64,000 nt of DNA from Loxodes magnus. Lineage: Eukaryota > Ciliophora > Karyorelictea > Loxodida > Loxodidae. Each line of letters opens with the position of its first letter. Position 1 is the stretch's first letter. The translations under genes were made by a program, and so were the position numbers. The stretch lies in NCBI GenBank assembly GCA_946699065.1, contig CAMPDV010000014.1, forward strand, positions 620,001 through 684,000, in the 5' to 3' direction. Positions 3,001 to 51,117 of this stretch are shown piece by piece. The notes beneath the pieces are model-generated. The model made no database searches. It had not been told where the DNA came from and worked only from the letters and a program-made list of their open reading frames with translations.

Positions 3001-5182
3001 TTAGACATATTGTAAAAAGGAGATTACTTTAAGCTTATTATATTCTGACTAATTGAAAGCTTTTATTTAACTTTTTATCAAAATTTATTTTACTTTTCTA
3101 AAATTTTACAATATCTTTCAATATACTTTAGAGTATTATCTTTCATTTTATTTCGATTTATTATTAGCTTTGAAGGTTTTCAGAGTTTATTATTTTAATT
3201 TAAACATATTTTTTAATCTTTTCCAATTTATTATTTGAGAAAGAAATTTTTGATAGTTTAAATTAAATTTTAACAATATTTTATTTGCAATTTTTTTATT
3301 TTTCCATCTACTATAACTTTTTAAAGTTTGTAATATAAAACATTTCATTTATAACTTAACTCAAGTTAAGTTAAAATTTGAGTTATTTTAGCTTTTGTCT
3401 ATTTTTAAATGTTTTTCATAAATTATTATTTTAGCTTTTAAAAGAGTTTTAAATAATTTAATTTACATCCTTTAATTATAATCTATGCGCACAGATCTCT
3501 TTTTTTTAATTTTAGTAAGTATGTTATAGATAAAACTTTTATCTTAACTTTTATTTATTATATTCTAATTTTATATAATTGAAGACTTTCAAATATTGAA
3601 TGAAGTAAATTATCTCATTCCAATTTAGTTATCTTTCAATCTTAATAATATATTCATCTTCTGTATATTAACACTATTTATCGCTTCTTTTGTAATATCA
3701 CTACATTATAGATTTTTTTAATATGCTTCTTGTTATTATATATTTCTATCGATATTTCTTCTACAAGTAGTTTGCTTTTTCAAAGACAAAATAGGAAATA
3801 AAATAAAATTATTATAATTGCTTTTTCAAGCTTTTGTAAGAACAATTTTCTTTATATTTTTGTTTGAATATAGTTATTTTAGAAATTTTAATTAGTTTAG
3901 TTTAAATTCTTAAATGAATCATAGTAAAGTTAATAATTTTTATTTATTTATTTAAATATTTCAGGCAGATAAAACAATTAACTATTCAATATCTTTTTCT
4001 CAGTTTCTTTTTAATAAATCTATAATCAGCAACTTTTAATAATTAAAAAGATGGTGGGAGCTGAGATTGACCTTTTGAATCATACTTTCTGGTTTTATGG
4101 CTAGGAACAAGTTCCTTTCCTGTCGTTGAGAAAGTCCCTGGTCAAAGTCAACCTTTACAAGGGAACGCATTCCTCTTGATTATCCACTCCTGGTAGGGGC
4201 TTGAAGCTTGGCTGCCCATAGCGATGGAGCTTCCTGGCAGCTGCTTTTCGAAAGCAGCAGGATATCCCCGTTATCCCATGAAGGGAGTGTTGGGGTCGTT
4301 AAATTGCAAGAAGTTGCAGTCCAAAAATTCTTTTAGTTTAAAATTAATTAATTAATAATCAACAACTTTTTTGTATAATTCGCTTCGAATTATAGTGAAA
4401 ATAATTTTAATCTTCTTGAAATTAAATAAAACTTCTAGGAAATTTATTTGCCTAAGCTTTATTTAATCACAGAAGCTTTCATACAGTATTTTAGATTGCT
4501 TTATTGGAAATTGAGCTGATTGCATATTATGTTTGAACAGAATTGCATAAATGAATTAAATTAAATAGATAGATATTTTACTGTTTAGAAAGTTATTTTA
4601 TACTTGGTTAAATTTAGAGCTCCAAGTTATTTTTTGTCTTATGAGATTATTTCTTCTCTGCCGATTTTATTAAAAATTTCGTATCACTAGTGCATATATG
4701 AATTTCACAGATAATTTTTTTTTATTTTTCAATCACATTATAAATTTTTTAAGCATTTTTGCTTTGATTAAGTATCTTTTTAATTAAAAAGAATGTTTAA
4801 ACTGTTTGGCATTAATATATTATATATCCATTTCATAGATTAATCATTTTATAACTATCTCCAAACATTTCTCTTGCTTCATTTAGTATTTAATACTTAT
4901 CAAAATTATAAAGAAAACATATTTCTGATTTATAATAGAAATTACTACTTTAAATTTTTTTTCGCTTTCAAATTTTTCCTTTTTATAAATCATAGAGAAT
5001 TTGAATCTTTTGATAAATTATTTATTAGAAAATTAAAAATTAAAAAAAAGCTCCAATTCTTTATAATTAAGGGTAGAACATTTTTTGATAAAAGTGCTTA
5101 ATTATTTTTCGCTTTGTTTTTTTTTATTTTTTTTAATTTATAAATTTAATAAAATTTAATAGTCTCTATCATTATCTATTGA
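2..5182 (+). CDS. large helical protein, 3' part, split by a short repeat
   Basis: The gene enters from the left edge and reads in the frame starting at base 2. I prefer this frame because it has a normal share of Asp, Glu and Gly (for example SYNWDEVYPMEDSSKQEAF near 730-790 and KIVGLQASKQLKTFRDNF near 2305-2360), while the neighbouring frame lacks Gly for hundreds of residues. Several Trp codons are TGA. The protein is a run of Leu/Ile/Phe-rich helices with no motif I recognise; an armadillo/HEAT-like or membrane-rich scaffold is possible. At 4022-4370 it is interrupted by a 333-bp family B repeat, a multiple of three, and the same frame continues beyond it (LHLVFNTYQNYKENIFLIYN near 4880) to TGA at 5180-5182. 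The start lies outside the window. Function unknown. Confidence 0.55.
4038..4354 (+). repeat. family B short retroposon-like repeat inside a gene
   Basis: This GC-richer block starts AATAATTAAAAAGATGGTGG and ends in a TTAA-type tail. It is flanked by 16-bp direct repeats, ATAATCAGCAACTTTT at 4022-4037 and ATAATCAACAACTTTT at 4355-4370, one mismatch. The same sequence occurs at 22465-22767 and 50787-51104 (minus) and 23205-23512 (plus), with older relatives elsewhere. Long target-site duplications and a simple tail fit a SINE. It sits in the middle of a reading frame, and repeat plus one flank is 333 bp, so the host frame is kept. Confidence 0.8.
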
Positions 5183-10254: not shown

Positions 10255-10572
10255 TAAGATTAGAGAGTGCGTAATGCCTCTGGGGCGAGCAGCTCTTTAG
10301 TAAAAGCTTTTAAAGTAAAAAAATTATTTTCTGAAGTCTTCCACAGTGCTAGCATTCATTTCTGTGATTCTTGTATTCTATAGGACCGTTATTGCATTGC
10401 TAACTAAGAGACCTTAGTATCTGGATCTTTCATCATTAACTTTACTTGATACCTCTTCATTCTTACCTTCTATTGGCTCCAATCAAGATTCTTGTTCAGT
10501 TCTTTGTCCATGGGTACTTCCTGATTCCAGATCTTAAATCAATCTCAGTTGGAAGATTGCTCCTCCCTATTT
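10255..10572 (-). repeat. family A SINE-like repeat
   Basis: The left side carries the family hairpin (AGAGAGTGCGTAATGCCTCT ... AGCTCTTTAG) and the right side the family start, read on the minus strand as TAAATAGGGAGGAGCAATC. The body is close to the copy at 20240-20490: both contain GGTACTTCCTG and the CTCCCTATTTA end on the plus strand. The minus strand would encode a peptide beginning AIFQLRLIQDLESGSTHGQR, partly shared with the other copy, so the body may derive from a coding sequence. Confidence 0.6.
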
Positions 10573-10599
10573 ATTTATATTATATAATATTTAATAATA

Positions 10600-11785: not shown

Positions 11786-12150
11786 TTTTAAATAGGGTTG
11801 AAAGCCCTTTCCTTCGGATCCTGCTTGGAGGCCCAGCAAGGCAACTATAAAATGAGCGCGGACGGAAGATAAATCGGAGAAAGAGAAACCAATAGCAAGA
11901 GAAGGAAAATTCAACAAGCTGGAGAACTCTGAAGGCCAGGAGAAAATCTTCTTCATCATATGTCGGGGAAAGATGTATCCGTAATCGCATATTGCATCCT
12001 ATGCTTTGGAAGGAAAAATTACAGGGATGTACTGCAGGAAGAGAAAACAAGATAGAGAGACCATTAAAAAATTGTTCAACATTAAATAAAATTAATTTAA
12101 TGAGCTGCGCCCCAACGAGAGTGCTTCGGCTCTATAATCCAATTTATTTA
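11786..12150 (+). repeat. family A SINE-like repeat, plus orientation
   Basis: It begins TAAATAGGGTTGAAAGCCC and ends in the conserved hairpin (GAGCTGCGCCCCAACGAGAG ... GGCTCTATAATCC) with an ATTTATTTA tail. GC content stands out sharply from the surroundings. The middle matches the 15742-16045 and 23816-24108 copies around the ATCGC and CCTATGCTTTGGA blocks. It lies beside the left end of segmental-duplication copy 1. Confidence 0.7.
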
Positions 12151-12638
12151 TAAATAAATTTAGCAATAAATCATTTAGTTTATTAAATTGCTGAATCATT
12201 TAAGAAATATCTCTTACTGAATCTTATAAGTTTTTTATTGTATAATTTTATTATTATAGGTAAATCCACTTTGTAATTTTTCATTTCCTAAGTAAATGAT
12301 AACAAAGAAAGATAATAATATTAAAAGCTTAAAATATTTAAAATTAATAAGCTAAATTAAAAGGTATAACTATTTTTTTATTTTTCTTATTTAATTGACT
12401 CTTTTTAAAGAAAATCCTTACAAAAACTAAATAAAAATTAAATATAACAATAACTAAAATTAAGAACTGAATATTTATTAATAAGTATAGCTTTTTAATT
12501 TATAAAATAACTTAGATATTAAAAAGGAATGAACTGCTAATATTTAATTTATAATAAATATAGTATTTATATAAAAGTTCTATCATAAATCTTAATAAAG
12601 ATATAGAATTATAAATTTCTTTATATCATTCATCTATA

Positions 12639-13964
12639 TCATAACTTTTTAAATATAGTAGCTTAATTATTTTATTTTTATTAATAACTTTATCTTTTAA
12701 AACAAATAATAAATTTTAATTTTAAATCAAGAAAAAAGTAAAGCTGTTACTTCTACGCTTAAATATTAGCCTATGCATCAGGATTATCTTGATTATATAC
12801 TACTGGCTAATTTGCAACGTTATTTTCCTAAACTGGTTATTACTCTTAAACTCAGTTATTATTTTAATTAGCTTATGGAAAAGCATCTTGAGGAGAAATT
12901 TAGCTCTCATTATTAGGTTAAAGAGCATTCTGTTCATTATTATTTTATTATTGAGAAGCTGCTTAATTTTGACTGTTTTATTGGAGACGATATTTATCCT
13001 TTTTCAAAAAATTCAATAAAAAAGAAATTCCTGAAAATGTTCCGAAAATTACGAACATAATTATGCCTATAGCAGAGTTAGAAGCAATTGGTTTTTTTAC
13101 TTTATCTGTATTATCTTAACTTTCTGTCATCCATTCCAAATTGCCATAGCTATTTGTATCGTCACAATCACCCTAATCATAAGAACATTCTTCTATGTTG
13201 CAATTAGAATCACAATAACCGTCTCCTAAGTTATTGTAGTTACATACAGTAGCACATTCAGAAGTATTTTAACAGTCTCCATTATCATAACTACATCTTT
13301 AAGTATTGCACACCTCGTCACATTAGCCATCTCCAATCAATGAAGATTAGCATCCAGTAGCACAATTAGAAGTGCCTGAACAATCTCCATTATCATAATT
13401 ACAACTTTAAGTATTGCAAGCCGTATCGCAAAAGCCATCTCCTATTCATTAATCTACACATCCATTAGAACATTCAGAAGTATTTGGACAGTCTCCATTA
13501 TCATAACTACATCTTTAAGTATTGCACACCTCGTCACATTAGCCATCTCCAATCATCGAAGATTAGCATCCAGTAGCACAATTAGAAGTACCTGAACAAT
13601 CTCCATTATCATAATTACAACTTTAAGTATTGCAAGCCGTGTCGCAAAAGCCATCTCCTATTCATTAATCTACACATCCATTAGAACATTCAGAAGTATT
13701 TGGACAGTCTCCATTATCATAACTACATCTTTAAGTATTGCACACCTCGTCACATTAGCCATCTCCAATCATCGAAGATTAGCATCCAGTAGCACAATTA
13801 GAAGTACCTGAACAATCTCCATTATCATAATTACAACTTTAAGTATTGCAAGCCGTATCGCAAAAGCCATCTCCTATTCATTAATCTTAGCACGAAGTTG
13901 AGCAATATTAAAGTGTGATTGGGCAAAAAATAATTAAGAAAGAAAAACTAATTGCAAAATTCAT
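12639..13964 (-). CDS. LNR1: membrane protein with seven Lin-12/Notch repeats
   Basis: A signal peptide (MNFAISFSFLIIFCPITLQ) leads into seven LNR modules of the form GDGFCDTACN...CNYDNGDC, then a TESQDNTDK stem, one membrane segment (near 13040-13100, GIIMFVIFGTFSGISFLL), a KKDKYR stop-transfer and a Gln/Asn-rich tail. LNRs bind calcium and are folded by three disulphides, so this is probably a surface protein. TGA encodes Trp in DQWIGDGFCD. Paralogs at 31.3 and 44.2 kb stop with TGA after ...ANI; here that codon is TAA (12759-12761), and the next in-frame TGA is at 12639-12641, so the tail may be longer or the real end may be at 12759. An in-frame TGA in the tail lines up with TAA in LNR2. 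There are no frame breaks over 1.2 kb. Confidence 0.85.
13226..13873 (-). repeat. 216-bp tandem repeat (dimer of LNR modules), three units
   Basis: Markers such as CCTATTCATTAATCT recur at 13441, 13657 and 13873, exactly 216 bp apart. Each unit holds two different LNRs, one with CDTACN and one with CDEVCN. The gene therefore grew by copying a two-module unit, not single modules. Confidence 0.9.
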
Positions 13965-14600: not shown

Positions 14601-14779
14601 CTAAGTAAAAGACAATATAAAATTTAAGTAAATTAAATATTAATCTTATTCTGCTTCATTTATAAATTTTAATAATACCTCTTTAATTTACATCTTTTAG
14701 TTTTCGCTTATTATAAACGTATAAAGAACATTAAGAATTTAATTTCATAAAAAACTAAAAAAAACTAAAAAGCTTTGTT

Positions 14780-15548
14780 AAAGCCTTAGTAGTCAGACAT
14801 CTGACTTATTCTAACAGCTTGTCTCCATTATTTTGTCTTGAATTCCTACTAGGCTTAGTTAGGCGGTGTTGCGCTTCATTAGTGCACTATCCTTTAATAT
14901 TCGGAATAGTTTTGGTCTTGCATGTAGTCCTAATTATTTCCCCAAGGATTAAGATTTTAATTAAAAAAAATTTTTCTATAAATTTTTCCGCTTTATGTTG
15001 GATATATCCTAAATAGTTTTCTAAAAATATCTTATTTATTCTTTCTTTAAATTTCGACTAGTTAGTAACAGTATTTTAATTGGTGTTATTTATTGCACAC
15101 GTAGCATTTTTCTCTTCTTTTAGACTTTTATTCCTGTAACACTTATTTAATTTAAATTTACTAGTTATTTTAAATAAACTTTTACTGTTTATTTTAATTT
15201 GAGGCTTCATTTTCCATAGGATCTGATTAATTCTGTCAAAACGAAAATGGCGTTACTTGAATTTATTATTAGATTTAAAGAATTCATTGTTCCAGTTTTT
15301 TTTTCAATTTCTTATGATGATTAATATTGTTTCTCAAGTAAAAACATTATTAATTTTTCTACTTTATCAGTGAGGTATCTATTTTTGAACATAAACTCTT
15401 TTAATGACTTAGATAATATTTCTATTTGAGCTTGTGTCGGAAGATTTTTTAATTCTGGATTTCCAAGTGGTTAATGTTCGTCATATCAATCATATTTCTC
15501 ACTTTCACTCATTTTAATTATTTCTCTTTTTTATTTTTTAGAAGCCAT
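14780..15548 (-). mobile_element. zinc-knuckle protein ORF of a mobile element
   Basis: The ATG at 15548 opens a protein MASKKQKREIIKMSESEKYD..., with TGA as Trp soon after. Towards its end, near 15070-15110, is a knuckle CYVCNKQHQLKYC, then a conserved region ending YQGFNKAFQ near 14790. A second copy on the plus strand at 49630-50225 shares both the knuckle and the end region (SEYQR, ATxP, QAQ, DYQGFNKAFQ), with TAA, TAG and TGA conserved or swapped with Gln and Trp codons. It is an ORF1/gag-like protein; class unsettled. This copy looks nearly whole but is not fully intact. It interrupts the upstream flank of LNR1. Confidence 0.65.
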
Positions 15549-15741
15549 TTTAATTAATATTTATAATAAAATATTATTAAATTGAAAAAATAAGCTAAAA
15601 TATATTTTAATTTTAAATATAAATAATTAAACTTTAATTATTTTATTTTAGGAAAAATTTAAAAACTTTTATTTAAATAATATTATTCAATAATATTTAA
15701 ATTTAACTTGCTGAAAATTTTATAGAAGCCAAAAATAATAT

Positions 15742-16045
15742 AATTAAGGTTAAATAGGGAAGACCTTGCCTTTAAAGTTTACTAGAAAAATTTCCCAAAG
15801 ATAAACTGACTGAGAAGCAAGTTTTCTTAATGTTGGACCAGACTAATCTCCTCATTATGGGTAGAAATCTTCCTGTAATCGCCTGTTTGCGTCCTGTGCT
15901 TTGAAGAATTGGAACCGCAACCTTGCCCGCAATTAGAAGAGAAGATGTTATGAGAATATTGGGATTTAAAGAGACTAAAAAGACTTTTTAAAGAGATGTG
16001 CCCTATTGAGGGGCTACACACTGAATAATAATATATTTTTAACAT
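15742..16045 (+). repeat. family A SINE-like repeat, plus orientation
   Basis: It starts TTAAATAGGGAAGACCTTGCC and ends with the family hairpin (GAGATGTGCCCTATTGAGGG ... ACACTGAATAAT). It is about 80% alike by eye to the inverted copy at 23816-24108. Both can be read as a peptide containing LDQTNL and IMG, so the body may come from a protein gene. Confidence 0.7.
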
Positions 16046-19870: not shown

Positions 19871-20239
19871 TTGAGGAATTCAACTTCGATAAAAATGTTT
19901 GCTGGAATTGTTTGAAATTTTAATGAAAGTAAACATTTATTAAAATTTTAGTTGATAATAATAATGTATTCCTTTTAGATAATATTTTATAATTTTACAA
20001 TGAACAAACAACCTAAAATTTATGAAAGTAAATATTTTAATTGTTTTTAATAATCAAATAAGTACTTAGTTATCATAGAATAGATAATATGAATTAATAA
20101 AGTTTAAGCTTATTTGTTATATTTTAAATATTTTATGATCATTTGCGACAGATGAAGAGGATATAAAACTTATAGGATATTAAATAATAATTTATTTATT
20201 ATATTGTTTCAAACTTGATTTATTTAATAAAAAAGTTGT

Positions 20240-20490
20240 AAATTTTCTTATTGGAGATTACTCTAGTGCTATCACTCTCTTGGAAATCTTATCTTCTAAA
20301 AGAGCATGCTCGGAGTGATGTCCCAAGAGACCTAATCGTCTGTTATCTTTCATCTAGTATTGCTTGATGCTTTCAGTTATTTTCTTCTTTGTCTCCTGCC
20401 AAGATTCTCTCAGTTCGTTGCTCCTGAGGTACTTCCTGGTACCAAAGTTTAATTTAATCTCATTTGGAGGATTGCCCCTCCCTATTTAAA
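20240..20490 (-). repeat. family A SINE-like repeat
   Basis: Its right side has the family start (minus: TAAATAGGGAGGGGCAATCC), and the body matches 10255-10572, including GAGGTACTTCCTGGTACCA against GGGTACTTCCTGATTCCA. The 3' hairpin is diverged. It is absent at the matching point of duplication copies 2 and 3, so it inserted after duplication. Confidence 0.6.
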
Positions 20491-20859
20491 TCATATATAT
20501 AATAAATAAATTTGGATGACAAAATTTTTAGTAAAATGAAGATGAATAATTATAATTTAGAAGTTATATTTGCCAAAAATAAAAAAGACTTGCAATCCTT
20601 TATTAATAATTTAAAATAGTGAAATTAAAATATTTTATATTTATTTTAAATACTTTCTCATATTTAAATATCCTTATGTTTTAAATTTTTATTTGTTTTA
20701 TATTTATTAAAGTTGATTCTAGATACTAAAAGGAAGGAATAAAGAAAATTATTATTAATTAATATAGTATTAAATTTTATATTTGAATAAGATCTTCTAA
20801 TAATCAAAGGAATAATAAGCTAGATTATTTATAGTCTTATTATAACTCTAATCTTAGAG

Positions 20860-21065
20860 AGGTTTCTGCTTGTATCCAAAATTTTTAAAAACATTTCTGA
20901 AAAATTATCAGGCTTTTGTAGAAATTTAAAGTTTACGATTATGAGTATGCAGTCATTACTCATGTCTCTCCTTCCAGAAATTGATTAATAGAATATTCTC
21001 ATTATTTCTATAAATTATCAATTCAAAGAAAACAATATAATGAGAGCTTAAATATCCTCAAGCAT
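20860..21065. repeat. old, diverged family B-like repeat
   Basis: It shares a weak pattern with 25820-26050 and 35330-35540 (an AATTGATTAATAGAATATTCTC-like core and a final TGAGAG). It lies at the same place in duplication copies 1 and 2, so it was there before the duplication. Confidence 0.35.
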
Positions 21066-21769
21066 TTAAAGTTAATCATTAAAACTGGATCTCTTTTTAA
21101 ATTTTAGATTTTGTGTAAATAAGAATAAAAATTTAGAAATATTTTTCATTTTATTCATTTACAAATTAATAGAAACATTCTAAATCTTTTAAATTACTTT
21201 TTTCTGTATAAATAAGCTAAATATCTCAAGGTTTACAGAAAGAATTCTTCTAAACTTCTAAGAATCGGAATATATGGCATTTATTAATTCTAAGAAACTA
21301 AAAAAATTAGCAATATAATTGCACATTATATAACAATTCCAATTTGTGATGAAAAACATAGAAAATAGCCTAGCCAGTATTATATCAATAGATTTTTAAA
21401 GTTTTTCTAGATTTAATAAATAAATTTGTATTAACTAGTTAAAGTAGTATTAAGCTAAAGGAAAATATAATAAACTTTAGATGGACAAAAAAATAACGAA
21501 AAACTTAAAAATCATTAATAAATAGAATTAAAAGTTATATTTTATGGCTATTATTAGCCTAAACAACATCTTCATTTTTTTTAAATAGGTATAAGTTTTT
21601 AATCCTAAGTACTTATAAATCAGATAAGAGTTATTTTAAGAATTCTTTTTTCATCAACGAGATATTTATTTTATCTTCTCAACTTTAAATGCAAAAATTC
21701 AGAGAATATAAAATATGATAATAGAAATTAAAATATAATATTACAGTTTTAGTTTAATATATATATTAA

Positions 21770-22460
21770 AACGTTTTTTAAAGATTTAATTAACAAATTA
21801 TGACCATTATATCCTTAAGAACATGTGTAAAAATTGTAATTGCTCTCAAGCGGGTAATGAAACTCAGTATAAATTAAATTTAATGGCTAATATCTGTAAT
21901 TCAACCATGCTAAGTAATTTAGCAACAAGTTATTTGTCTTAGTTTTAATTTAAACACCCCTCTTTCACTTCTGAGCGGTGAATAAGAACTATCTTATTTT
22001 CTATCATAATGCTCCAATAATGCAGCTAAACGACCAAATTAATAAATTATATAATTTATCTAGATTTTATTTTATTTAACTTATTTAACTTCTATTTTTA
22101 TAATGAAATAATTCGAATATAGTTATAACTGAGGAAATAAGCAACTATAGCAAAAATTTTAAAAAGGCTAACCAAGAAAAAATAATATTTATGAATAGTA
22201 AATTTTGCATTTTATAGACAAAATAAATAAAATAGATTTAATATAATTGTTAAATTTAAAATTTAATGCTTATTAAGATCACTTATTAACTTTTAAATTA
22301 AGGTTAGATATTATCTTATATTAAATTTATTAATTATTTATTCAATAATTTAATTATCATTATAAAATTTAATTATTGCTATTGCTATTTAATTTTATAT
22401 ATTATTTATTATTAAATCTCATGTAATGTCATTTTTATTTTATTATTTATATTTTAATTA
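21770..22460. other. AT-rich stretch, nothing recognised
   Basis: No motif or convincing frame. A small patch at 21960-22040 has slightly higher GC but I could not assign it. Confidence 0.3.
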
Positions 22461-22464
22461 ATTA

Positions 22465-22767
22465 ATTTCAACTATAAAAGTTTTTGGACCGGAAACTCTT
22501 TTCCGATTGCACGACCCGACTCTCTCTTTTTATGGAAAAACGGGGATATCCTGTTGTGCTCCAAGCACAGCTGCTAGGGAGCTCCATCGTTATGAGTAGC
22601 CAGGCTTCAAGCCCCTACCAAGAGCGGATAATCTCAAAGACAGTGTTCCCTTCAGAAATGACTCTGACCAGGGACTTTCTCAGCGACAGGAAAGGAACTT
22701 GCTCCTAGCCATAAAACCAGAAAGTGTTGTCATGAAGGTCATTCTCAGCTCCTACCATCTTTTCAAT
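22465..22767 (-). repeat. family B repeat, left member of an inverted pair
   Basis: The TTAATTAATTAATTTCAACT tail is at the left and the GATGGTAGGAGCTGAG start at the right, so it lies on the minus strand. It is almost identical to the plus copy at 23205-23512; the long peptide readable in each differs at one residue. The sequence just right of it, ATGAAACTCTTCTTTAA (22771-22787), is the exact inverse complement of the sequence just right of the other copy. Confidence 0.85.
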
Positions 22768-23204
22768 TATATGAAACTCTTCTTTAAATTTGTGCATGTA
22801 ATAGTTAAAAACTAACTTCTATTTTAATATTGAACTTTCGGATTTTAAAAATTCTTTAATGTTATTTAGATCTTAAGTTCGTTGATAAAAATCACTAATA
22901 GCCTTTGCTAGATTTTGGTTCTACATCTAAGATATAGATAGTTGGCTGTATGCATATTTATTATATGTAATTGCTGTAAATATATTTAAAAATTAAGAAC
23001 TAAATAGTTAATTGATTACTAATTTATATTAAAATTGTAAATATAAGTTGAATCACCTAAAGAAATAAAATTGAAAAAAGAAGCATAATCAATTTATTCC
23101 TTATATAAAAAGATAAATCATAAGAATTTATAAAATTAAAATAATTTTTAAATATTTTTCTAAATTATTAAGTTTTTATTTATTTAAAATATTAAATAAA
23201 TAAT

Positions 23205-23512
23205 TGAAAAGATGGTAGGAGCTGAGAATGACCTTCATGACAACACTTTCTGGTTTTATGGCTAGGAGCAAGTTCCTTTCCTGTCGCTGAGAAAGTCCCT
23301 GGTCAGAGTCATTTCTGAAGGGAACACTGTCTTTGAGATTATCCGCTCTTGGTAGGGGCTTGAAGCCTGGCTACTCATAACGATGGAGCTCCCTAGCAGC
23401 TGTGCTTGGAGCACAACAGGATATCCCCGTTTTTCCATAAAAAGAGAGAGTCGGGTCGTGCAATCGGAAAGGAGTTTCCGGTCCAAAAACTTTTATAGTT
23501 GAAATTAATTAA
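23205..23512 (+). repeat. family B repeat, right member of an inverted pair
   Basis: It reads GATGGTAGGAGCTGAGAATG ... GTTGAAATTAATTAATTAA in the plus direction. With 22465-22767 it forms a near-perfect inverted repeat around about 440 bp of AT-rich spacer. A stem this long could fold back in RNA or DNA. Confidence 0.85.
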
Positions 23513-23514
23513 TT

Positions 23515-23815
23515 AAAGAAGAGTTTCATAAACATATTATCATAAAGGATTTAAATTTTAAAAAGTTTAAGCCAGAACAAGCCTAATAATTCAGAGATCC
23601 AATTGAAAAAGAATAAAAATTTCAAGACAAAAGATTCCCTATTGAAGAATAAAGATATGTTTGATACTGTAAGAGGCTAGGGCTTAAAATACGGAGATTG
23701 TACCTATTTCAATAAAAATAAAAGTGAGTAGTTGAAAATTAATGGCATAAATTTATTCAAGATTTATTACAATTTAGAAAATTTGCTTTAAAAGAAAAAT
23801 TTTCTAAGTAAAAAA
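23515..23815 (+). mobile_element. fragment of a zinc-knuckle ORF
   Basis: Near 23650-23710 the plus strand reads YCKRLGLKIR, aligned with YCKRPGHKVR of the 26755-27462 ORF, with the same flanking Arg and Phe-Gln residues. The knuckle has lost most of its ligands, so this is a decayed fragment of that family, trapped between a family B and a family A repeat. Confidence 0.45.
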
Positions 23816-24108
23816 GGCTTTGATTATAGTGCTCGTAGCACCTAATGATTGCAGCACTATAAGAAGTCAATTTTAAAGTCTTTAAATTCCCAAAATTCCC
23901 TTTGTATCTTCTCTTCTAATTATGGGCAAGGTTGAGGTTCCAATTCTCCAAATCACAGGATGCCAACAGGCGATTATAGGTAAATTTCCAGCCCATGATG
24001 AAGAGATTAGTCTGGTCCAACACTTAGAAGGTTTGCTTCTGAGTCAGTTCATCTTTGGGGAATTCTTCTTGTAACCTTTAGAGGCAAAGTCCACCTATTT
24101 AAATTAAA
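23816..24108 (-). repeat. family A SINE-like repeat
   Basis: The hairpin end (TTTGATTATAGTGCTCGTAG) is at the left and the family start (minus: TAAATAGGTGGACTTTGCC) at the right. It is the closest relative of the plus copy at 15742-16045. Confidence 0.7.
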
Positions 24109-24925
24109 TTATTATTAAATAAAGAAACTTTCTATATTTAATAAGCAACTAATTAATTCAATAGAAAATTATTGAGATTTTACCTAAAGGAATAAAAAAG
24201 ATAAACAATCTTAAATTCATCAAGACTCATGACAGTGAAGATTCAAGTAAGTTTAAGGCGATTATTATTAAAAAAAAAAAAATTAATATATGGAAAACCA
24301 AATAAAGGTGATACCACAATAATTAATTGTTATGTTATATTATAAATTTTTTAATTGTCAATCAAAACTTTAAGCGATAGCCATTCTGGTGAATCTTTCA
24401 TTGCAGTCTTATGAAACTTTCGTTAATTATTTTAATGATATTTTTACAAATAATATTAAGTATACTGTTAATATATTTTCTATAAAAAAATATCATAAAA
24501 AATATCCCTTATTAATGTAGAATTGATATATTTCACTTCGATTATTCATTAAATTTTTTCCTTTTATTGATCTAGACTAATCAATGCTTTATTCCTTATT
24601 TTGTAAAGAACTTAAAAATAATGTACTTAAAGGTAAGTTAATTAAATCTATATAAAGTGATTCTTTAAATGATTTATCCACTTTTTAATAGATTTTTTAA
24701 GCAATAAGATACATATTTGTTCGATTCTATCGAATATAAAAGTTATTCCTTGTTAATAGTTCAGGAAAATAATTCTCCATGATAATCAACATTTGGCAAT
24801 GCAAAATGCCTCCAAAGGATTTAAAGGGCCTGAATTCACATTTTAATGTCGCAATAAAAAAAATTCACAGCAACAAGATATTTAGAAGTTACTTACAGTT
24901 ATTTATCAGATTTTTTATAAATGTA
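24109..24925. other. AT-rich stretch, nothing firm
   Basis: No gene is supported. A slightly GC-richer patch at 24780-24860 can be read as a short peptide on the plus strand (MQNASKGFKGPEF), but nothing supports it further. Confidence 0.3.
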
Positions 24926-24929
24926 TTAA

Positions 24930-25090
24930 GACTCACAAGTATGTGACCTGTCGTTTCAAAGAGAATAGTATATCATCAACTTTTAAATTATGTTTTACTT
25001 TTTTATTTTCTTTTTCAAGAATTAGTTTTTCACATTTAGAAATGTTTAACGAGCTAATTCGAATATTTTACTTTTTTCATTTACTAAATT
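24930..25090 (-). pseudogene. fragment related to the ORF at 37560
   Basis: The minus strand reads LEKENKKVKHNLKVDD, matching LEKKNKINKGNLKVDD of the plus-strand block at 37560-37710. The DNA match extends through ACGACAGGTCACATACTT and then stops. It is a partial copy of an unidentified protein-coding sequence, possibly from a mobile element. Confidence 0.45.
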
Positions 25091-25815
25091 TTATTTTTCA
25101 ATATTAGATCTTTTAATTAAATCATATGTATTTACTCTGCATGATATTCTGTTATCAAAATTATTACACTTGAATCCAATAATTTTACTTTAGCTATATT
25201 GCTCGTTTATATTATATAATAGAAACAGTAAATTATATATCTGTAAAAAATATCAAGTTTATTTATAAGAACCAATGGTAATTTTACTCTTTAAAGAAAG
25301 TTAGAATGTAATTTCCCTTCTATAAGATGCTAGTATTTTATTTAGATTTAATAATTTGGCTTTTTTCCTACTGATTATTGATGAATACATTTATTATTTC
25401 TCATTTGCTAAAATTTCAAAGGGATTTATTTTCTTTAAAATTAAATTTTTGTAAAATCGAAGGTAATTAATTTTTATATTCGTATTATTCTAGTAGATTT
25501 TTTCAATTATGCCTTTACCTTATATATTTCTTGTTAGTAATTTATGATACTTATGTAAAATTAAATTCTCTCCTGAAACATAAAATATTATTTAGTTTTA
25601 CCTTAAAATTATTTAGTTTCTTTTTGTTGATTTGATGGTTTTTGCTGCCTACGAAAAATAACTTTAGGATTTATGCTTAAAAAAGAAATATTTTCAAGTT
25701 AATTTTTAAGAATTTCCATAAAAAATTTTTATATTTTTTCTAGTTTAATGACAATTGTTTAGAGACTTATTACTATTTAATAGGGTCTTCCAAAATAATA
25801 TTAAGTGTCTTTATA
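25091..25815. other. AT-rich stretch, nothing recognised
   Basis: T-rich sequence with no motif or supported frame. Confidence 0.3.
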
Positions 25816-25819: not shown

Positions 25820-26050
25820 TAATTACCTTATGGAGATCCTTGGTTGGATTCAAAGTTTCGAAGGGAACATATCTGAAAAAAACCCAGTTTTGATAGGAGC
25901 TTGAAGTCTAATGATCATGGAGTATGCATTCAATACGCATGATAGTTCCTGTTAGAAAAACTGATTAACAGAAATCCCCGTTATATCAACCAGGATACCG
26001 TCAATAGATGCAGCTTAACGAGAGCTAGGCTATTCTCAAACTCTCATAGC
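25820..26050 (+). repeat. diverged family B repeat
   Basis: GATAGGAGCTTGAAGTCTAA and AGAAATCCCCGTTAT correspond to GGTAGGGGCTTGAAGCTTGG and AGGATATCCCCGTTAT in the 4038 copy. The order and spacing of blocks agree, but many bases differ, so this insertion is old. Confidence 0.55.
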
Positions 26051-29093: not shown

Positions 29094-30660
29094 TATCTCT
29101 TCTTGATTTTTAGTTTTTACATTTTTGCTCACTAAATTCAAATTAAACTGGAATCACTTAGTTATAACTGTAAATAAATAACTATTAAAAGCTTATCATA
29201 AACTAATTAAGGGCATAATTTATTAAATAAAAATTGAAAAATTAAAGTTATATTTAAAGTTTCATAAACTTAAAACATTAAAGAAATTATTTAAAATATT
29301 ATATTTAAATTAGAAATCGTTGGAATTAAAATTTACTGATAATCTTCTAACTTTTTAACTCTTTATTCCTAAATTTACTAAATTCATAGTAGCTAAACTT
29401 TCAAATTTTTATTGTTTTGTTTTTAGGAATAAATTATAAAAATTTAAGAGTTGCTATAAATAATTTAAATCAATTTAATTAAATAAGATAAAATTACTGC
29501 ACCTGTTCTTTAGATGGGTCTTTTATTTATAACGAAAATTAATTATCTAAATTAAGCCAATCATCCTGCTATTATCTCTAAATTAAAATCTTTTAAGCTT
29601 TTTATTTAAAATTTTTAATAAATTAATAAAGTTTAATTTAATTATAATAGTCACCTATAGATAAGCAAAAGCTTAATTTTTATTTGTCTATTGCTTTATT
29701 TTCTTGCTTAGTTTTCGATTTTATTTGGCTTGCTTCAAAGTTTTTGAAGATAATCTAATTTTAATGTAAGCTATTTTTTCTTTATATGTAATTTAAGAAA
29801 TAGAATAAAATTTTACGATTTATCAGAATTATTCTAATAAAGTTTATTTATTTGCTTGATAAACATATCATAGTTTTAATACATTCCTTATGGCTTAAAG
29901 TTTAGTTATCTTTATAGATAAATCTGAAAAGCATATTTACTAATGCTAAAATAAATTTTTCAATTCCAATATTCTTTTTAAGTTTATTGTATATCTAACT
30001 ACAAAGTAACAGCCAATTTATTATATTTACAAATTGTATTTTTCCTTTATAATGATTTATACCTTCTCCCATATAGCCCTTATTAGTTTATTCTACAAAT
30101 ATAATTTAGTATATTTTAATTAAATTATAATAATCAAGCTTACCATAATTAAGAGTTACTCTACTCTTTCTAATAAATAATATATAAATTAAAATTATAA
30201 ATAGATAATTTAGTAATAAATATCATTTAATTTAAATTACTTAGTGCCTTTTATATTTAAAGCTAAGGAATCTATTAGTTCAAAACAATTTTAAAGGAAA
30301 TGTATCTTAAAAGAATTTAAATCTAAGTTTAAACTTGAAGAACTAGAAATTTAAAAATAAAAAGAATAAATGAAAGCTGTTAAAGTTAGAAAATAAACTC
30401 ATAAAATAATAATTATTAATAGCATATAGATAAAGCCATTTGCTAAATAATTTAGATCTTTAGTATTTTAACAATTCTAATAGCTTATTATTTCAGAGTG
30501 ATAGATATAAAGGTTAAAAAATTAAAGGATTTAGTTAGAAATAAAGAATAGATGTTCTATTAATTTTGTAACATCTTTGAAGATCCTCATAAATTATTTA
30601 TAGGTCATTCATCAAAATGCTTTAATCTTAATATTTTCTAGATAAACAAGTTAGTATTAT
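29094..30660. other. flank of duplication copy 2, possible minus-strand coding
   Basis: The part from about 29900 recurs at about 42900-43600 and 48480-49150. On the minus strand some stretches look protein-like (for example LERVEQLLIMVSLIIII near 30150), and SLALNIKGTK aligns with SFASKCKSTK of the 43 kb copy. Small indels between copies change the frame, so a functional gene is doubtful. Confidence 0.35.
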
Positions 30661-31268
30661 AAATAAATTTAGCAATAAATCATTTAGTTTATTAAATTGC
30701 TAAATCACTTAAGAAAATATCTCTCATTGAATCTTATAAGTTTTTTATTGTATAATTTTATTATTATAAGTAAAATCCACCTTGTAATTTTCATACCATG
30801 AGTAAATGATAATAAAGAAAGATAATAATATTAAATTCTTAAAATATTTAAAATTAATAAGCTAAATTAAAAGGTATAACTATTTTTTTATTTTTCTTAT
30901 TTAATTGACTCTATTTAAAGAAAATCCTTACAAAAACTAAATAAAAATTAAATATAACAATAACTAAAATTAAGAACTGAATATTTATTAATAAGTATAG
31001 CTTTTTAATTTATAAAATAACTTAGATATTAAAAAGGAATGAACTGCTAATATTTAATTTATAATAAATATAGTATTTATATAAAAGTTCTATCATAAAT
31101 CTTAATAAAGATATAGAATTATAAATTTCTTTATATCATTCATCTATATCATAACTTTTTAAATATAGTAGCTTAATTATTTTATTTTTATTAATAGCTT
31201 TATCTTTTAAAACAAATAATAAATTTTAATTTTAAATCAAGAAAAAAGTAAAGCTGTTACTTCTAAGC

Positions 31269-31934
31269 TCAAATATTAGCCTATGCATCAGGATTATCTT
31301 TATTATATACTATTGGCTAGTATACTACGTTATTTCCTTAAACTGGTTATTACCCTTAAACTTAGTTATAATTTTAATTAGCTTATGGAAAAGCATCTTG
31401 AGGAGAAGATTAACTCTCAATATTAGGTTAGAGAGCATTCTGTCCATTAAAAGTTTATTTTTGAAAACCTGCTTAATTTATACTGTTTAATTGGAGACGA
31501 TATTTATCTTCTTTGCAAAAATTCAAGCAGAAAGAAATTCCTGAAAATGTTCCGAAAATTACGGCTACAATTATACATATAGCAGAGTTAGAAGCAATTG
31601 GTTTTTTTACTTTATCTGTATTATCTTAACTTTCTGTCATCCATTCCAAATTGCCATGGCTATTTTTATCGTCACAATCACCCTAATCATAAGAACATTC
31701 TTCTATGTTACAATTAGAATCGCAATAGCCGTCTCCTAAGTTATTGTAGTTACATCCAGTAGCACATTCAGAAGTATTTGGACAATCTCCATTATCATAA
31801 TTACAGCTTGTAGTATTGCACATTTAGTCACAAAAGCCATCTCCTAGATCTTAATCTGAGCATGAAGCTGAGCAGGATTAAAATGTGATTGGGCAATAAA
31901 TAACGAAGAGTAAAAGACTAATAGCAAAATGCAT
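31269..31934 (-). CDS. LNR2: membrane protein with two Lin-12/Notch repeats
   Basis: The 221-residue frame runs from ATG 31934 to TGA 31269-31271. It has a signal peptide (MHFAISLLLFVIYCPITFQ), LNRs GDGFCDQMCN...YDNGDC and GDGYCDSNCN...YDQGDC, the stem MTESQDNTDK, a membrane segment near IIVAVIFGTFSGISFCL, then a Gln-rich tail ending DAQANI. It is the nearest relative of LNR1 but lacks the 216-bp repeat array, so it may show the form before expansion or a collapsed one. The end TGA matches LNR3 and LNR4. No frame breaks. Confidence 0.85.
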
Positions 31935-35329: not shown

Positions 35330-35540
35330 TCTAACCTTAGAGAGATTTCATGCTGGATCCAAGAATTTGAATTAAATTGTCTGAAAGAGAATTTGGTCTG
35401 TTGGATCTTGAAGTTTCTGTTTGCAGAAATTAATTAGTAAAGGATCCTCATTATATCAATGAAGTGTCCAATCAGAGAAAAATAAGATGAGAGTTTAACT
35501 TTCCTCAAACTATCAAAGTTTTTCATTAATAATTATAATA
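35330..35540. repeat. old family B-like repeat, same site as 20860-21065
   Basis: AAATTAATTAGTAAAGGATCC and ATATCAATGAAGTG correspond to ACTGATTAACAGAAATCC and ATATCAACCAGGAT of 25820-26050. It is shared with duplication copy 1. Confidence 0.35.
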
Positions 35541-36329
35541 AAATCTCATTTTAAACTTTAGAAAACATTAACTATTTATTCTTTTATAATTAATGCAAGC
35601 ATTAAAATCATTTAATCTACCTTTTTCGATACAAATAAGCAAAATATCTCAAAATTCACAAAAAAAATTCTTCTAAGCTCCTAATAAATAGGAGTGCATA
35701 ATATTATTAATTCTATTAAATGAAAATAAGTTAGTAGGATAATTGCACACTATATAGCAATTCCAATTTCTGATGAAAAACATAGAAAATATCCTAAGCC
35801 AATATTTCATAAATATGTTTTTAAAATTTTCGACACTTAACAAATAAGTTTTTATTAACTTGAATAAATAGTACTAAACTTAAAGGAGCAATAAAAAAAC
35901 TTAAAAAAGAGAAAAAAATAAATGAAAGTCTTAATAAGTTTTAAAATAGAATTAAAAGTTATACAATATATCTATTATTAGCCTAATTTTCAACATCATT
36001 TTTTTGTGAAAAAGATATAGGTTTTTAGTTCTAAATAATTATAAGACTGATAAGAGTTATTTCAATAATTCTTTTTTCATCAATGAGATATTTACTTTAT
36101 CTTCTCAGCTTTAAATGCAAAAAACTCAGAGAATATAATATATGAAAATAAGACAAATTAATTTATTTTAAGTTAAAGATTTTATTGATATATTTCTAGC
36201 AAAAAACCTATATAAGATTAAATTAATAACTTTGAATGAGTTGAAAAAAATTATAATAAATGAATAGAATTTAAATAAACTCCCTTAGAGCAATAAAACT
36301 TTTTATAAGATTAAGATTTTAGTTTAAGT

Positions 36330-36600
36330 AAGCTAAAAATTAAAGAAATCTAATTGCTTTATTATATTGATCGGAACCTCAGTTACTTGCTCATCCATAG
36401 CTCCGAATATACGGTCTTTGAGTATTAGCGATTATCAATGGCGTGTGCAGGGATAGGCAGTTGATATTTGGATATCTTCAGTCAGGGAGTTCCATAGTTA
36501 TGAACTGTTTATCGCTAAGCTTCTACTGATGGTAAACTGTAAAAATCAATTTTACTTTGAATCAGGATACTGCATTCATGAAATTTTACTTGCATAACAA
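36330..36600 (-). repeat. diverged family B repeat, left arm of an old inverted pair
   Basis: GGGAGTTCCATAGTTATGAA matches GGGAGCTCCATCGTTATGAG of the 22465 copy, and TAAGCTTCTACTGATGG matches its CAGGCTTCAAGCCCC region. Faces the plus copy at 36715-37000 across about 110 bp, the same layout as the young pair at 22465/23205. Confidence 0.5.
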
Positions 36601-36714
36601 AATATTTGACTCATCAAATTTCGAAAATTAATAAAGAAATTTAAAAATACTAAATTTTAAGAATTTATTTATAAAACTATTCATTTTAACTGCAGGAATA
36701 ATTAAAAAGATGCA

Positions 36715-37000
36715 GAACTTAGGTTTATTCTATGAATAAGCTTTCTATCTTTATGGGTAAGTTCATTTCATACTTGTCGCTAAGGAAATCCCTAGTTAGG
36801 ATCAATCTCAGCAAGATAATAAAATCTTTCTGATTATCCACTCTTGCTAGCGATTTTAAGCCTGTTGGCCCATAGTTATGGAACTTACTGGCCGAAGTTT
36901 ATTGAATAAAGCAACAGGATATTCACGTTATAGCGTTAAGATTGCTCTATTTCATTTAGCTGGAAAGAAGTTTCCAGCCTCTTGAAATAGAAATTTTTAA
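36715..37000 (+). repeat. diverged family B repeat, right arm of an old inverted pair
   Basis: It starts AATAATTAAAAAGATGCAGA, contains TGTCGCTAAGGAAATCCCTA and TGATTATCCACTCTTGCTAG, and ends near AGTTAATTATTAATTAATTA. These match the 4038 copy block by block, with scattered changes. Confidence 0.65.
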
Positions 37001-37559
37001 GCTTATAATTAGTTAATTATTAATTAATTAATTTAAGTTTAAGATCTAATAAATCATAAATAAGACAAATCAATCTTATTTTGCAAGAGTTTCATTAAAA
37101 AATGATTACCACTTATCTAATAATATAATTGCTTATACTAATATAATATCTTATATTAACAAGTAATCTAAAGTTATTAGTTCGTATTAAAAAATTAAGC
37201 AAATTATTTGAGGGAAATTCTGCCATATTTAGGATCTTTAACTTACAATTTTTTAAAAGTTAATGTAGCAAATAATTATTTATTATTGATTAAATTTAAA
37301 ACTTGGAGACTCGGAATTATCTTCTTAATTAATTTCATAGTCAAGCATCGAAGAGAAATATATTTTCCACAAGAAGTATATAAAATATATATCTTATCAT
37401 TTCTTTTTAATGGAATATAAATGAAAATATAGCTAGAGTAATATTAATGGATTCAAGTATAACAACTTTGATAACAGTATTTCAGGCAGAGTAAGGACAT
37501 ATGATTTAATTATATTGTTTAATATTGAAAAAATAAAATTTAGTAAATTAAGCAAGTAA

Positions 37560-38170
37560 AATTTTTTAATTAGCTCGTTTAAGCATTAACTTTCCAAATG
37601 TTAAGCAATCTATTTCTTGAAAAGAAAAATAAAATAAATAAAGGAAATCTAAAAGTTGATGATAAACAATATCTTAGAAACGACAGGTCACATACTTTGG
37701 AGCTTTAAGAAAAACGAAAACTTCTAAAAATCGGTATAGAATGGAAATCTTCTAAATCAAGATAAGTTAGCTCTAAAGAAGAATTCCGAGCAGAATGGTT
37801 AGCACAACTATCAACTCCACCAATGAAACAGAAAAAAGAGATTGAACAACTGAATCCATTAAAGAAATAACAAAGAAACAAAAAATTAATGAAAAGGGAT
37901 AAATTCGATAATGCAATATTGATTTGAAAATCTTTGAGATAGAAAAATTTGAAGAAATGGAATCATAATAAATAACTCAGCTAATTTATAAACTTATCAA
38001 GAAAATAAATTTCTTGAATAAAATTTAAACTCTAAGAAGGATGAAATTTTTTAGATATGTCAAAACATTATAGAATATTAAGATGATGATGGGAAATGTA
38101 AAATTTGAAAGAAAAATAAATAATTAACTCAGAATATAAAAAGGATAAAATTAAGGGGACAATATAAAAA
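37560..38170 (+). pseudogene. unidentified coding sequence, probably a remnant
   Basis: The plus strand reads LEKKNKINKGNLKVDD, then RNDRSHTLELQEKRKLLKIG, SKEEFRAEWLAQLSTPPM and KKEIEQLNPLKKQQRNKKLM, a charged and coherent protein. Further on, good composition moves between frames. The first 150 bp match the minus block at 24930-25090, so it is a dispersed sequence, perhaps from a mobile element. No family recognised. Confidence 0.4.
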
Positions 38171-41720: not shown

Positions 41721-43605
41721 TTATTTAATATAATTTAATTATTTTCCTAATTTTTTATGATTGAAAGAGTTATTAAAGCATAAATCTTTCTATGCATTTT
41801 AAATTTATATATATCCGTTGCTAAAAATTATAAATAAGAAAAACTCATTATCTTCATTAAATTTAAGCTAATTCTATTTGATAATTATACTATTGATATA
41901 TAAATTAGATAGAATTTTTCTTAAATATTTAAAATATAAATGCTTTATGATATTTATTTATTAGCATTTTATCTATTTAATATAACTATTTATCAATATA
42001 CTCTAGAAATTATTTTACGAATAACTAAAACTTTTAGTTTATTAAATCATTATTTTAGGTTCTTTATAAGCAGTTCAAAACTTACTAAAAGCTATGCTTA
42101 CATTAAATTAATAATTTGCTTATTTTCTTATTTTTAATTATTTATATACAGAATTAAAATTAATTAAGTTTATTTCTTATTAAAACTAAAACATTTGAGA
42201 ATTTAATCTAAGATTAAACTTAATAATTAAGGAATATTTTTATATCAAATTATAAAATTAGAAATACATTTAATTAAAAATACCTATTAATTTCTAAGTT
42301 TCTATTCTTAATAATTATACATAATTTATAATAATAAAACTTAAATACTTGAAATTATTTTTCAATTTTATATAGCTATAATTAAATTTTAAGTAACTTT
42401 TTAAAAATGTTTAGACGATATATTAGATAAGATGGGATATTCTTTAAAATATTTGATTAATCTTTTATAAATTACATAGAAAATCAATAATTTATTTTTA
42501 GTCTATCAGCTTACTATTAACTCTAAATGGAAATTTATAATGCTTTGCTTTTTATCTAAAATAATGAATAAACTCATAAATTTTGTTTTAGATATTAATA
42601 TTTGTTTCTAAGTAAATAACCTTTATTTTGGTTTGCTTTATCTTAATAATCTATTAATTTTGCTTAATCTAAAATAAAATAATTAAAATCCAAACTTATA
42701 GCTGTATGAAACTTAAGTTTCGATATAATAATAAACGATATTTAAGTATAATAAGAATAAATTAATATTCTTTTATTTGATATAGTTTATAGCTATCTCT
42801 TAAGAATTACAGTTTATGCTAATTTTTAATTTAAATTGGATAAGCATATCTAATTAAAATAAAGCTAGGATTTAATAATTATGATAATTTACTGTTATCT
42901 ATATTAATAAAGAGCAACTAAATGAATAAAGTTATTAATATATATTATAATTTCTTAATATTTATACTTTCTCCCATATAACCATTATTATTTATTAAAT
43001 CTATCCTTTCTAAATTATAAAGAAAACTACATAATCATCTTAATACTATAAAGAAAGAGTTCTATACTTTTAGTTCTTTTTGATAAATCTAGTAGAGCAA
43101 TGATTAAAATATATCAAAGTTAGTGATTTAATATTTATAAATTGATTAATAATAGCTTAGTGCTTTTACATTTAGAAGCAAAGGAATTACTTATTTCATT
43201 CGATTCTCTAGAAATTTTATTTAAAATATTTGGAATATAAATGAAAACTTTGAAAGACATGAAAGCTAAAATATAAAAATCTTAATTTGGATATTATAAA
43301 TATAAGCTTAAAAAGTTTAAAAAATGAATACTTATTTAAATCAAACGAATATAATATAAAAGAGTCATCTGATAAATAATTATGATCTTTAGAAGTTTTA
43401 AATGTTTATTAAATTATATTATTCTAGAATGCTGTTACTATTCTAAAAATAGATAATTAAATAAAAAATAAATAATCTATTACCTTTATAAATGATTTAA
43501 TACTCTCATTATTTTATTTCTATATCGTTCATCAAACTATATCCTCCTATTAAATTTCGAGATAAGTAAGTTAAGATTATTAATTTATCTAAAAAAATAA
43601 AAAGT
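41721..43605. other. AT-rich, left flank of duplication copy 3
   Basis: From about 42900 on it resembles 29900-30650 and 48480-49150. Shared landmarks are the GTGCTTTTACATTTAGAAGC block and CTTTCTCCCATATA. Frames differ by small indels between copies. No firm gene. Confidence 0.35.
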
Positions 43606-44192
43606 TAGTGTATAAAATTGCTAAAAAATGAAATATTCTCTCATTTAATTTTAAAAGTTGGCTATCAGGATGATTTTATAATTGTAGAATAAAAGCTACT
43701 TTATAAATATCTATCCTTGTGTAATGGTATAAAAGAAAGATAAAAATATTAAATTCTTTAAAATATTTAAACTTTCTAGCCTAAACTAAAAAATTGATAA
43801 CTTCTTTGATTCTTCTTCATTTAATTAGAGTTTTTCAAAGATATTAATGCAAATTAACTAAATAAAAACGAAAGATAAAATAATAGCACTAAGAAACATC
43901 ATGCCTTAGAGATAAGTATAACCATTTAATTTTCTAAAATAACTTTTACTAAAATAGGTTTAACTGTAATATCTCAATTATAGATATAATTTCTATATAT
44001 AAATTCTATAATAAATCTTAATAAAATATAAAATTATAGACATTTAAATCTCATATCTAGATCTTAACTTAGTGAGATAGAATTACTTTATAAGATTAAC
44101 TATATTTATTGGTATTTTTATCTTGTAAAGCAAACAAATAAGATTTGATTTTTAATGATGAAATAAATGTAAAGTTATCATTTCTTCTATGC

Positions 44193-44969
44193 TCAAATGT
44201 TAGCCTATGGTGCAATAATACCTATATTATGTATTGTTTGCTGATATCCTTCGCTATATCCTTAAGCATGTTAGAAACCTTAAAATTAGTTATAAGGAGT
44301 TTAAGAAATTAAGATTTATAAATTTTGTGGAGGAATCTAGTTTCTATGAAATTAATTACTCAAAATTTATTAAGGGATACTAGGATCTTATTGCCTAAGG
44401 GCCATTTCTTAAATTTGCTTTCTTGGATCATCTTTTCTCAAATTTTAAGATTAACTTTCGCGCACAGTACTAGGCAATGTGTTAATTAACACATTTAAAT
44501 TTAATTGAGGAGCTACTTAATTTCAACTGTTGTAATCGGGAATGTTCTTATCCTTTTGCCAAAAAAACATGAAAGAAGAAAATCCTGAAAAAGATCTAAA
44601 AATTATGGCCATAATTATGCCTATTACAGAGTTTGAAGCTATTTATTTTTTTGCTTAATCCGTATTATCTTTACTTTATAGCACCCAATCATCATCACTG
44701 AACAATATAAAAATACAATCTCCAAAATCATAAGAGCACTCTTCGTTGTTGCATTCTGAATCACAATCGCCATTTCCTAAGATATATTATGAACAATAAC
44801 ATTAAGAATAACTTCGGCAGTCTCCACCATCGAAATTACAAATTTCAGTATTACACTCCTCATCACATTAATCATCTCCTAGTTAATACCAGGAGCAGTA
44901 CATTGAGCACTATTAAAATGTGACTGGGCTATAAATAACCAAGAGGAAAAGGGTAAGCACAGAAGGCAT
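44193..44969 (-). CDS. LNR3: membrane protein with two Lin-12/Notch repeats
   Basis: 258 residues from ATG 44969 to TGA 44193-44195. Signal peptide (MPSVLTLFLLVIYSPVTFQ), LNRs DQCDEECN...FDGGDC and GDCDSECN...YDFGDC, stem with SKDNTDQ, membrane segment near GIIMAIIFRSFSGFSSFM, and a long Gln/Asn-rich tail with HAQGYSEGYQQ and the end PQANI. The tail resembles LNR4 (PAQGYSGGYQPLGYNQG), longer than in LNR1 and LNR2. TGA is Trp in the tail (YNSWNQ) and stop at the end. No frame breaks. Confidence 0.85.
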
Positions 44970-50225: not shown

Positions 50226-50594
50226 TATTTTTTAACTTTTTCATAAAAAATTCTCATAACTGTCTTTTTTTTAATAATAGAAATAGAAATATAAGTTTAT
50301 TATTTTCTTAACTCATAAAAAGAGTAATAAATGTGACTTGAAAATAAAAATAAGAGTTATGATTTTATTCCTTACTTAATTTATAAATATATTTTTATTT
50401 ATTTTTGCTATTTACTTTTATTTTCTTATAAATAATTTAACATTTTTATCATTAATTTATAATTATATAATTAAAAAATCGTTATTACTCACCATTTTTA
50501 AATTTAAATTTAACTAAAATAATCTTGTGACATCTTTTCATTGTTGGAATTCCTTCCTTCAATTCACGATATTATAATATTATTTAAAAGTTTT

Positions 50595-50785
50595 TCATTT
50601 CTTCGCACTTTCATCTTCATCTTCTTCAGCTTGATCATCTTCTTCGTCAGTTTATTCCTTCTAATCTTTCTTTTACTCTTCATGTTCTTCTTCGTCCTCT
50701 TTATCTTCCTCATTTTCTTCATCTTTTTCTTCATCTTTAACTTCTTCTACTCATCATTTTTATTTTATTATAAATTCCTTTATTT
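50595..50785 (-). CDS. acidic C-terminus of an unknown protein
   Basis: The minus strand reads EEVKDEEKDEENEEDKEDEE and on to TDEEDDQAEEDEDESAKK, then TGA at 50595-50597. Long acidic tails are common on chromatin and ribosome-associated proteins, but nothing else identifies this one. Upstream the frame meets a family B repeat (50787-51104) flanked by ATTCCTTTATTTA; the continuation beyond it is not clear. The spacing between the flanks is 331 bp, not a multiple of three. Confidence 0.55.
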
Positions 50786-50786
50786 A

Positions 50787-51104
50787 AATTAATTAATTTC
50801 AACTAAAAAGGTTTTTGGACCGGAAACTCCTTTCCGATTGCACGACCCGACATTCTCTTTTTATGGAATAACGGGGATATCAAGTTGTACTCCAGGCACA
50901 GCTGCTAGGGAGCTCCATCGCTAAGAGCAGCCAGGCTTCAAGCCCCTACCAAGAGTGGATAATCTCAAAGACAGTGTTCCCTTCAGAAAATGACTCTGAC
51001 TAGGGACTTTCTCAGCGACAAGAAAGGAACTTGTTCTTAGCCATAAAACCAGAAAGTTTAGGCACGAAGGTCACTCTCAGCTCCCACCATCTTTTCAATT
51101 ATAT
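50787..51104 (-). repeat. family B repeat with 13-bp target-site duplication
   Basis: ATTCCTTTATTTA occurs at 50774-50786 and again at 51105-51117, directly outside the element. The tail (AATTAATTAATTTCAACT) is at the left and the GATGGTGGGAGCTGAG start at the right on the minus strand. It is nearly as well kept as the 22-23 kb pair. Confidence 0.85.
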
Positions 51105-51117
51105 ATTCCTTTATTTA

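Follow-up and report, generated by a model that had tools for sequence, protein, structure and literature searches.

SINEs derived from tRNA, 5S or 7SL RNA are found in animals and plants as short, dispersed and non-coding elements, bounded by target-site duplications and ending in a short-repeat tail. In ciliates, SINE-like elements are already known from Paramecium, since putative SINEs have been described in the germline of Paramecium tetraurelia (Guerin et al. 2017, PMC5405496). For Loxodes magnus, Seah et al. (2024, PMC11441545) describe about one million repeats in 915 families, most of them unclassified. The same work presents LINE-type domains as abundant, finds 504 repeats that coincide with monoallelic indels, and reports that direct repeats flank indels at a frequency above chance. 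A SINE in a karyorelict was sought in the titles and abstracts of the open-licence literature, and none was found there. The element described here is very probably one insertion of a family of short, non-autonomous, non-LTR, SINE-like retroposons in a karyorelict ciliate.

The insertion lies near one end of the window, by which we mean the whole 64-kb stretch of DNA that was analyzed. The initial annotation had recorded at this place a 333-bp repeat with 16-bp flanks. On the plus strand, a SINE-like retroposon of 317 bp (4038..4354, hereafter c1), whose ends coincide with the ones seen in other copies, is preceded by a 5' target-site duplication, ATAATCAGCAACTTTT (4022..4037), and followed by its 3' counterpart, ATAATCAACAACTTTT (4355..4370). 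The two duplications, which were called from the sequence and with random-pair and swapped-flank controls, start 333 bp apart, as annotated; the identity of the flanks that the annotation implied is not exact, because they agree at 15 of 16 positions and differ at one. Among random pairs of segments (n=2000), a score of at least 13 was reached in 0.35%, and the match between the flanks of c1 is beyond chance. The element itself opens with a fixed 5' end, (N)ATAATTAAAAAGATGG, and continues with a GC-rich body and an AT tail of TTAA repeats. Its GC content is 42%, against 22% for the window. An empty allelic site for c1 was searched in the assembly by means of both flanks and was not found, since each of them occurs once, with only short partial matches elsewhere (two in one search, three in another).

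The assembly (705,730,643 bases in 7843 contigs) was searched with c1, and the 40 best matches of 1672 first-look candidates were scored. These 40 places comprise c1, 38 copies that were fetched and one at a contig end that was left unfetched. Copies with identical flank duplications were judged to be duplicates; 7 of the 38 were dropped in this way, and the 31 that remained, together with c1 and c4 (a further copy within the window, see below), made up an independent set of 33. Target-site duplications with a score of at least 12 were present in 30 of these 33 best matches to c1. When the 5' and 3' flanks were taken from different copies, the same score was reached by 34 of 1056 pairs. In a first pass over all 38 fetched copies, 34 had reached a score of 12. 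Three of the 33 copies (L018, L034 and L043) showed no clear duplication.

The duplicated sequences vary from copy to copy, and TTAA/TAAA-like sites mark the start of the duplication in 28 copies. The copies have a fixed 5' end, and their 3' tail is built of variable runs of TTAA, TTAAA and TTAAAA units, for example AATTAATTAATTA, AAATTAAATTAAA and AAAATTAAAATTA. Divergence from a 317-bp consensus of 32 aligned copies ranges from 0 (L014) to 5.7%, with c1 at 2.8%; this sample consists of the best matches to c1 and is therefore biased to young and complete copies. As in SINEs, the members of the family are short, non-coding, numerous and dispersed, with varying target-site duplications and a 3' tail of short repeats. 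Their anatomy gives strong support to the classification of the c1 family as a SINE-like, non-autonomous non-LTR retroposon without a recognised Pol III head, and the duplications at 30 of the 33 independent copies speak strongly for the label of SINE-like repeat that had been given to c1. Pattern scans of viral and genome contig collections, which may omit this genome or its near kin, returned no match.

Within the 64-kb window, BLAST and nhmmer detected four more copies beside c1, three of them clear and one old. The clear ones, c2 (22453..22770, minus strand), c3 (23200..23517, plus strand) and c4 (50784..51102, minus strand), form a second subfamily that is 77-79% like c1, and the gaps between the subfamilies have lengths that are not multiples of three. 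The duplication of c4, AAATAAAGGAAT, lies at 51105-51116 and 50774-50785, with an offset of 331. The old copy, c5 (36697..36996, plus strand), is diverged, with 64-66% identity to the other copies, and no target-site duplication was found in its flanks. In addition, 25832..25988 on the plus strand may be what is left of an even older copy (nhmmer E = 7.9e-05 in the window), and 36449-36523 is perhaps a weaker remnant according to nhmmer and BLAST.

Further short and mid-length repeat families were observed in the window, several of them GC-rich and with copies 68-85% alike, and some of them may be SINE-like. The pairs are 15736-15993 with 23857-24117, 10312-10594 with 20232-20509, 14734-15326 with 49656-50254, 24926-25240 with 37385-37708, and 20964-21799 with 35413-36232. 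A Pfam search of the other GC-rich islands and repeats, which covered some frames and some copies, gave no mobile-element domain and only weak matches below the cut-offs. The window also carries four LNR (Notch-type) genes, at 12148-13925, 30657-31895, 43596-44930 and 61539-62663, three on the minus strand and one on the plus strand; the latter was called by a Pfam match and the others by similarity. Two of these genes have 1.19 kb in common at 93.5% identity, and internal domain repeats are up to 97.6% alike. The C-termini of the minus-strand genes (within 12200-13100, 30650-31500 and 43700-44700) share the ending ...ANI, followed by TGA in two paralogs and by TAA in the third, which may read past the usual stop.

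Regarding the origin of the family, several searches for a known small RNA at its head were carried out. Rfam gave nothing above threshold over the window and, on three copies, only matches far below the family cut-offs; ARAGORN found no tRNA. A-box-like words occur in several places with one mismatch each, and B-box matches need three mismatches, with the exception of short-form matches in c5. No tRNA, 5S or 7SL head was recognised in the copies by these searches, which diverged heads would escape.

On the other hand, a fold predicted in common for c1, c3, c4 and c5 has changes on both sides at 20 of its 79 pairs. Shuffled controls gave a mean of 8.8 and none of 500 was as high, and slid structures gave from 1 to 8; when further pair types were counted, 6 of 500 shuffles were as high. 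It should be noted that this control leans towards structure, because these same four sequences served to derive the fold. The comparison supports, without proving it, a covarying RNA fold in the family. The folding energy of c1, with z of -1.66 on the plus strand (7 of 100 shuffles as low) and of -1.84 on the minus strand (4 of 100), is not striking by itself.

Another aspect to consider is whether c1 interrupts a gene, as the initial annotation had proposed when it placed the repeat in frame inside a coding sequence and stated that the code leaves it open. As the genetic code, NCBI table 6 was tried and was dropped after the kelch-repeat gene (Pfam domains at about 56901-58700, with TGA read as W) gave TGA where tryptophan was expected. 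The in-frame TGA codons of this gene fall at what we take to be the tryptophan positions of the kelch motif and support a tryptophan reading of TGA, in agreement with table 27. Among the 1263 training codons of the LNR and kelch genes, in-frame TAA, TAG and TGA occur 68, 12 and 12 times, respectively. Seah et al. (2024, PMC11441545) state that Loxodes magnus uses translation table 27. This table has no unconditional stop codon; therefore, every frame is open and openness is uninformative. In the proposed frame the repeat unit contains 3 TAA, 1 TAG and 3 TGA codons; read with table 6, the frame would be closed by the three TGAs. The statement that the code leaves the frame open is then correct under table 27, in a trivial way, and loses its value as a sign of coding.

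The reading that follows from such a frame is that the element is exonic and adds 111 residues to the protein by in-frame translation, in a code that has no dedicated stop. The points that favor it are that the spacing of 333 is a multiple of three, and that, whichever of three training sets is used, the joined flanks score highest in the proposed frame among all six (for example, -0.02 versus -0.14 to -0.36). Under the same codon model, some stretches of the kelch gene do no better than this (down to -0.04). These values come from a windowed codon score, which was used instead of a codon HMM that was discarded because its calls tracked GC content and included the repeats. Against this, the proposed frame is equalled or surpassed by the best frame in 20-58% of windows of the same length, depending on the training genes, and the protein search with the joined-flank peptide gave 18 candidates, none of them at E <= 1.

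The composition of the flanks points in the same direction: their GC content of 16-24% is closer to the mean of 3' UTRs than to that of CDS, which are 18.6% and 33.5% in L. magnus, respectively (PMC11441545). This low GC is not decisive against coding, because the kelch gene reaches just 26%, and on that count alone a coding flank would be compatible. Neither the GC of the flanks, nor codon usage, nor the homology search provided a positive sign of coding for the frame proposed in the annotation. As regards the multiple of three, its arithmetic holds and the meaning attached to it does not: in the 30 copies with duplications, the offsets modulo three (0/1/2) are distributed as 10/12/8, which is no excess of 3n spacing over chance, and consequently the spacing at c1 needs no explanation. 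A translated insert is thus improbable, and the apparent fit of c1 inside a gene is most likely due to chance.

The possibility that the element is a relative of MITE-type DNA transposons, or a terminal repeat belonging to a larger element, arises from the arrangement of c2 and c3, which are identical at 317 of 318 positions and lie in inverted orientation around 429 bp. The flanks of this pair bear on the question. A 17-bp segment flanking c2 on its 5' side (22771..22787, minus strand) recurs at the 3' side of c3 as a matching 18 bp (23513..23530, plus strand) that overlaps the tail of c3 by 5 bp; the identity is of 18 bp when one base of the element is counted. The matches of each copy with its own other side are at chance level (score 8 for c2 and 7 for c3). 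This crossed match was one among 20 cross-copy pairs of flanks compared, and another of them, between the 5' side of c4 and the 3' side of c2, lies in AT-rich sequence and reached a score of 12. For c2 and c3, the reciprocal crossed duplication is weak, with P of 0.004 versus random pairs and 0.11 versus AT-rich pairs, so that the inversion stays at the level of an interpretation. Its simplest form is that recombination between two insertions would have inverted the segment between them, and gene conversion may account for their near-identity. Another candidate reading, c3 as an interruption of an open frame, was set aside, its codon score being ordinary (64-84% of windows are as good).

The crossed 18-bp duplications fit such an inversion between two insertions and not one composite element. 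Furthermore, four pairs of inverted repeats were detected around c1; they measure 14-16 nt, are AT-rich, and none is placed at the two ends of the element. The process of target-primed reverse transcription fits both the 12-20 bp length of the duplications and the variable TTAA-type tails. A DNA-transposon origin is for these reasons very unlikely.

In other ciliates, IESs typically look like repeat-bounded, transposon-derived inserts. The insert c1 resembles them, since a direct repeat bounds it, and the initial annotation had raised the option that it would be removed as an eliminated germline sequence. As an IES, c1 would be cut out between its flanking repeats during the development of the somatic nucleus. 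The assembly that carries it appears to be the MAC assembly of L. magnus, judging from its size, code and composition; Seah et al. (2024, PMC11441545) published a MAC assembly of 706 Mbp and a MIC assembly of 848 Mbp. Because the total of 705,730,643 bases agrees with the former, c1 is probably present in somatic DNA. In the comparison of both nuclei by these authors, no canonical IESs were detected, neither a domesticated DDE transposase nor editing-associated small RNAs were found, and indels tracked haplotypes and not the type of nucleus (PMC11441545). In addition, the repeats that flank the element vary between copies, like target-site duplications and unlike a conserved excision signal. 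Elimination is contradicted, because c1 lies in what we infer to be the somatic assembly of a species for which such elimination was not found; it is as poorly placed as a DNA-transposon origin, and retention of c1 in the DNA is what the evidence shows. The removal of c1 from mRNA as an intron, another option of the annotation, with nothing in its favor beyond the shared flanks and the spacing, is the least credible reading of all, given that L. magnus introns have a mean of 19.3 nt, with 93% of them of <=25 nt (PMC11441545), and that no GT/GC...AG pair fits the repeat unit at a 333-nt spacing within the duplicated flank. One longer GT...AG span is present around c1, from 4003 to 4395.

The SINE-like insertion would then have come about by retroposition. 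A copy of the family would be transcribed into a structured RNA of ~300 nt, and an endonuclease encoded by a LINE, the presumed source of mobilisation, would nick AT-rich DNA. The 3' tail of the RNA, of (TTAA)n type, would prime reverse transcription at the nick, and a staggered cleavage of the second strand would produce the target-site duplication of 12-20 bp. The new copy would stay in the somatic nucleus, as c1 seems to have done, since DNA of this kind is not eliminated in this ciliate. At its own site, c1 is presumably without effect on any protein.

Considered alone, the site of c1 is of modest interest, because the claim of coding is unsupported. The family as a whole gives an anatomy to a part of the large unclassified fraction of Loxodes repeats, to which it very likely belongs, and it points to recent movement of short retroposons in a ciliate that, according to published work, leaves its genome unedited. 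A bolder reading, which we put forward as tentative and on balance doubtful, is that of a recently active SINE family in a transposon-retaining ciliate, with a head derived from no described small RNA and with a conserved fold of its own. If this were true, insertions into exons would cause no truncation by stop codons in a code without a dedicated one, and an unusual tolerance to them would be possible. The family offers a direct test of whether a stop-free code relaxes selection against insertions in exons.

With respect to known systems, the c1 family is like the tRNA-, 5S- and 7SL-derived SINEs in length, dispersion, non-coding nature, target-site duplications and short-repeat tail, and it is unlike them in that none of those heads was recognised. 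In the description of the unclassified repeats of L. magnus, the word "SINE" is absent from the main text, and no family appears to be tied to a SINE-like anatomy (PMC11441545). The SINEs of Paramecium are also multi-copy, short and without coding capacity in a ciliate host, and the LINEs of Paramecium end in short tri- to pentanucleotide repeats, as the copies of the c1 family end in short repeats (PMC5405496). The Paramecium SINEs make up 0.04% of MAC-destined DNA versus 0.53% of the next compartment, whereas c1 is present in an assembly of somatic size (PMC5405496 for the Paramecium values). Finally, the REP non-LTR retrotransposons of Tetrahymena are described as LINE-like elements that excision keeps, for the most part, out of the somatic genome, a difference from the c1 family; what both would have in common is retroposition of LINE type in a ciliate (Xiong et al. 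2019, PMC6564038).
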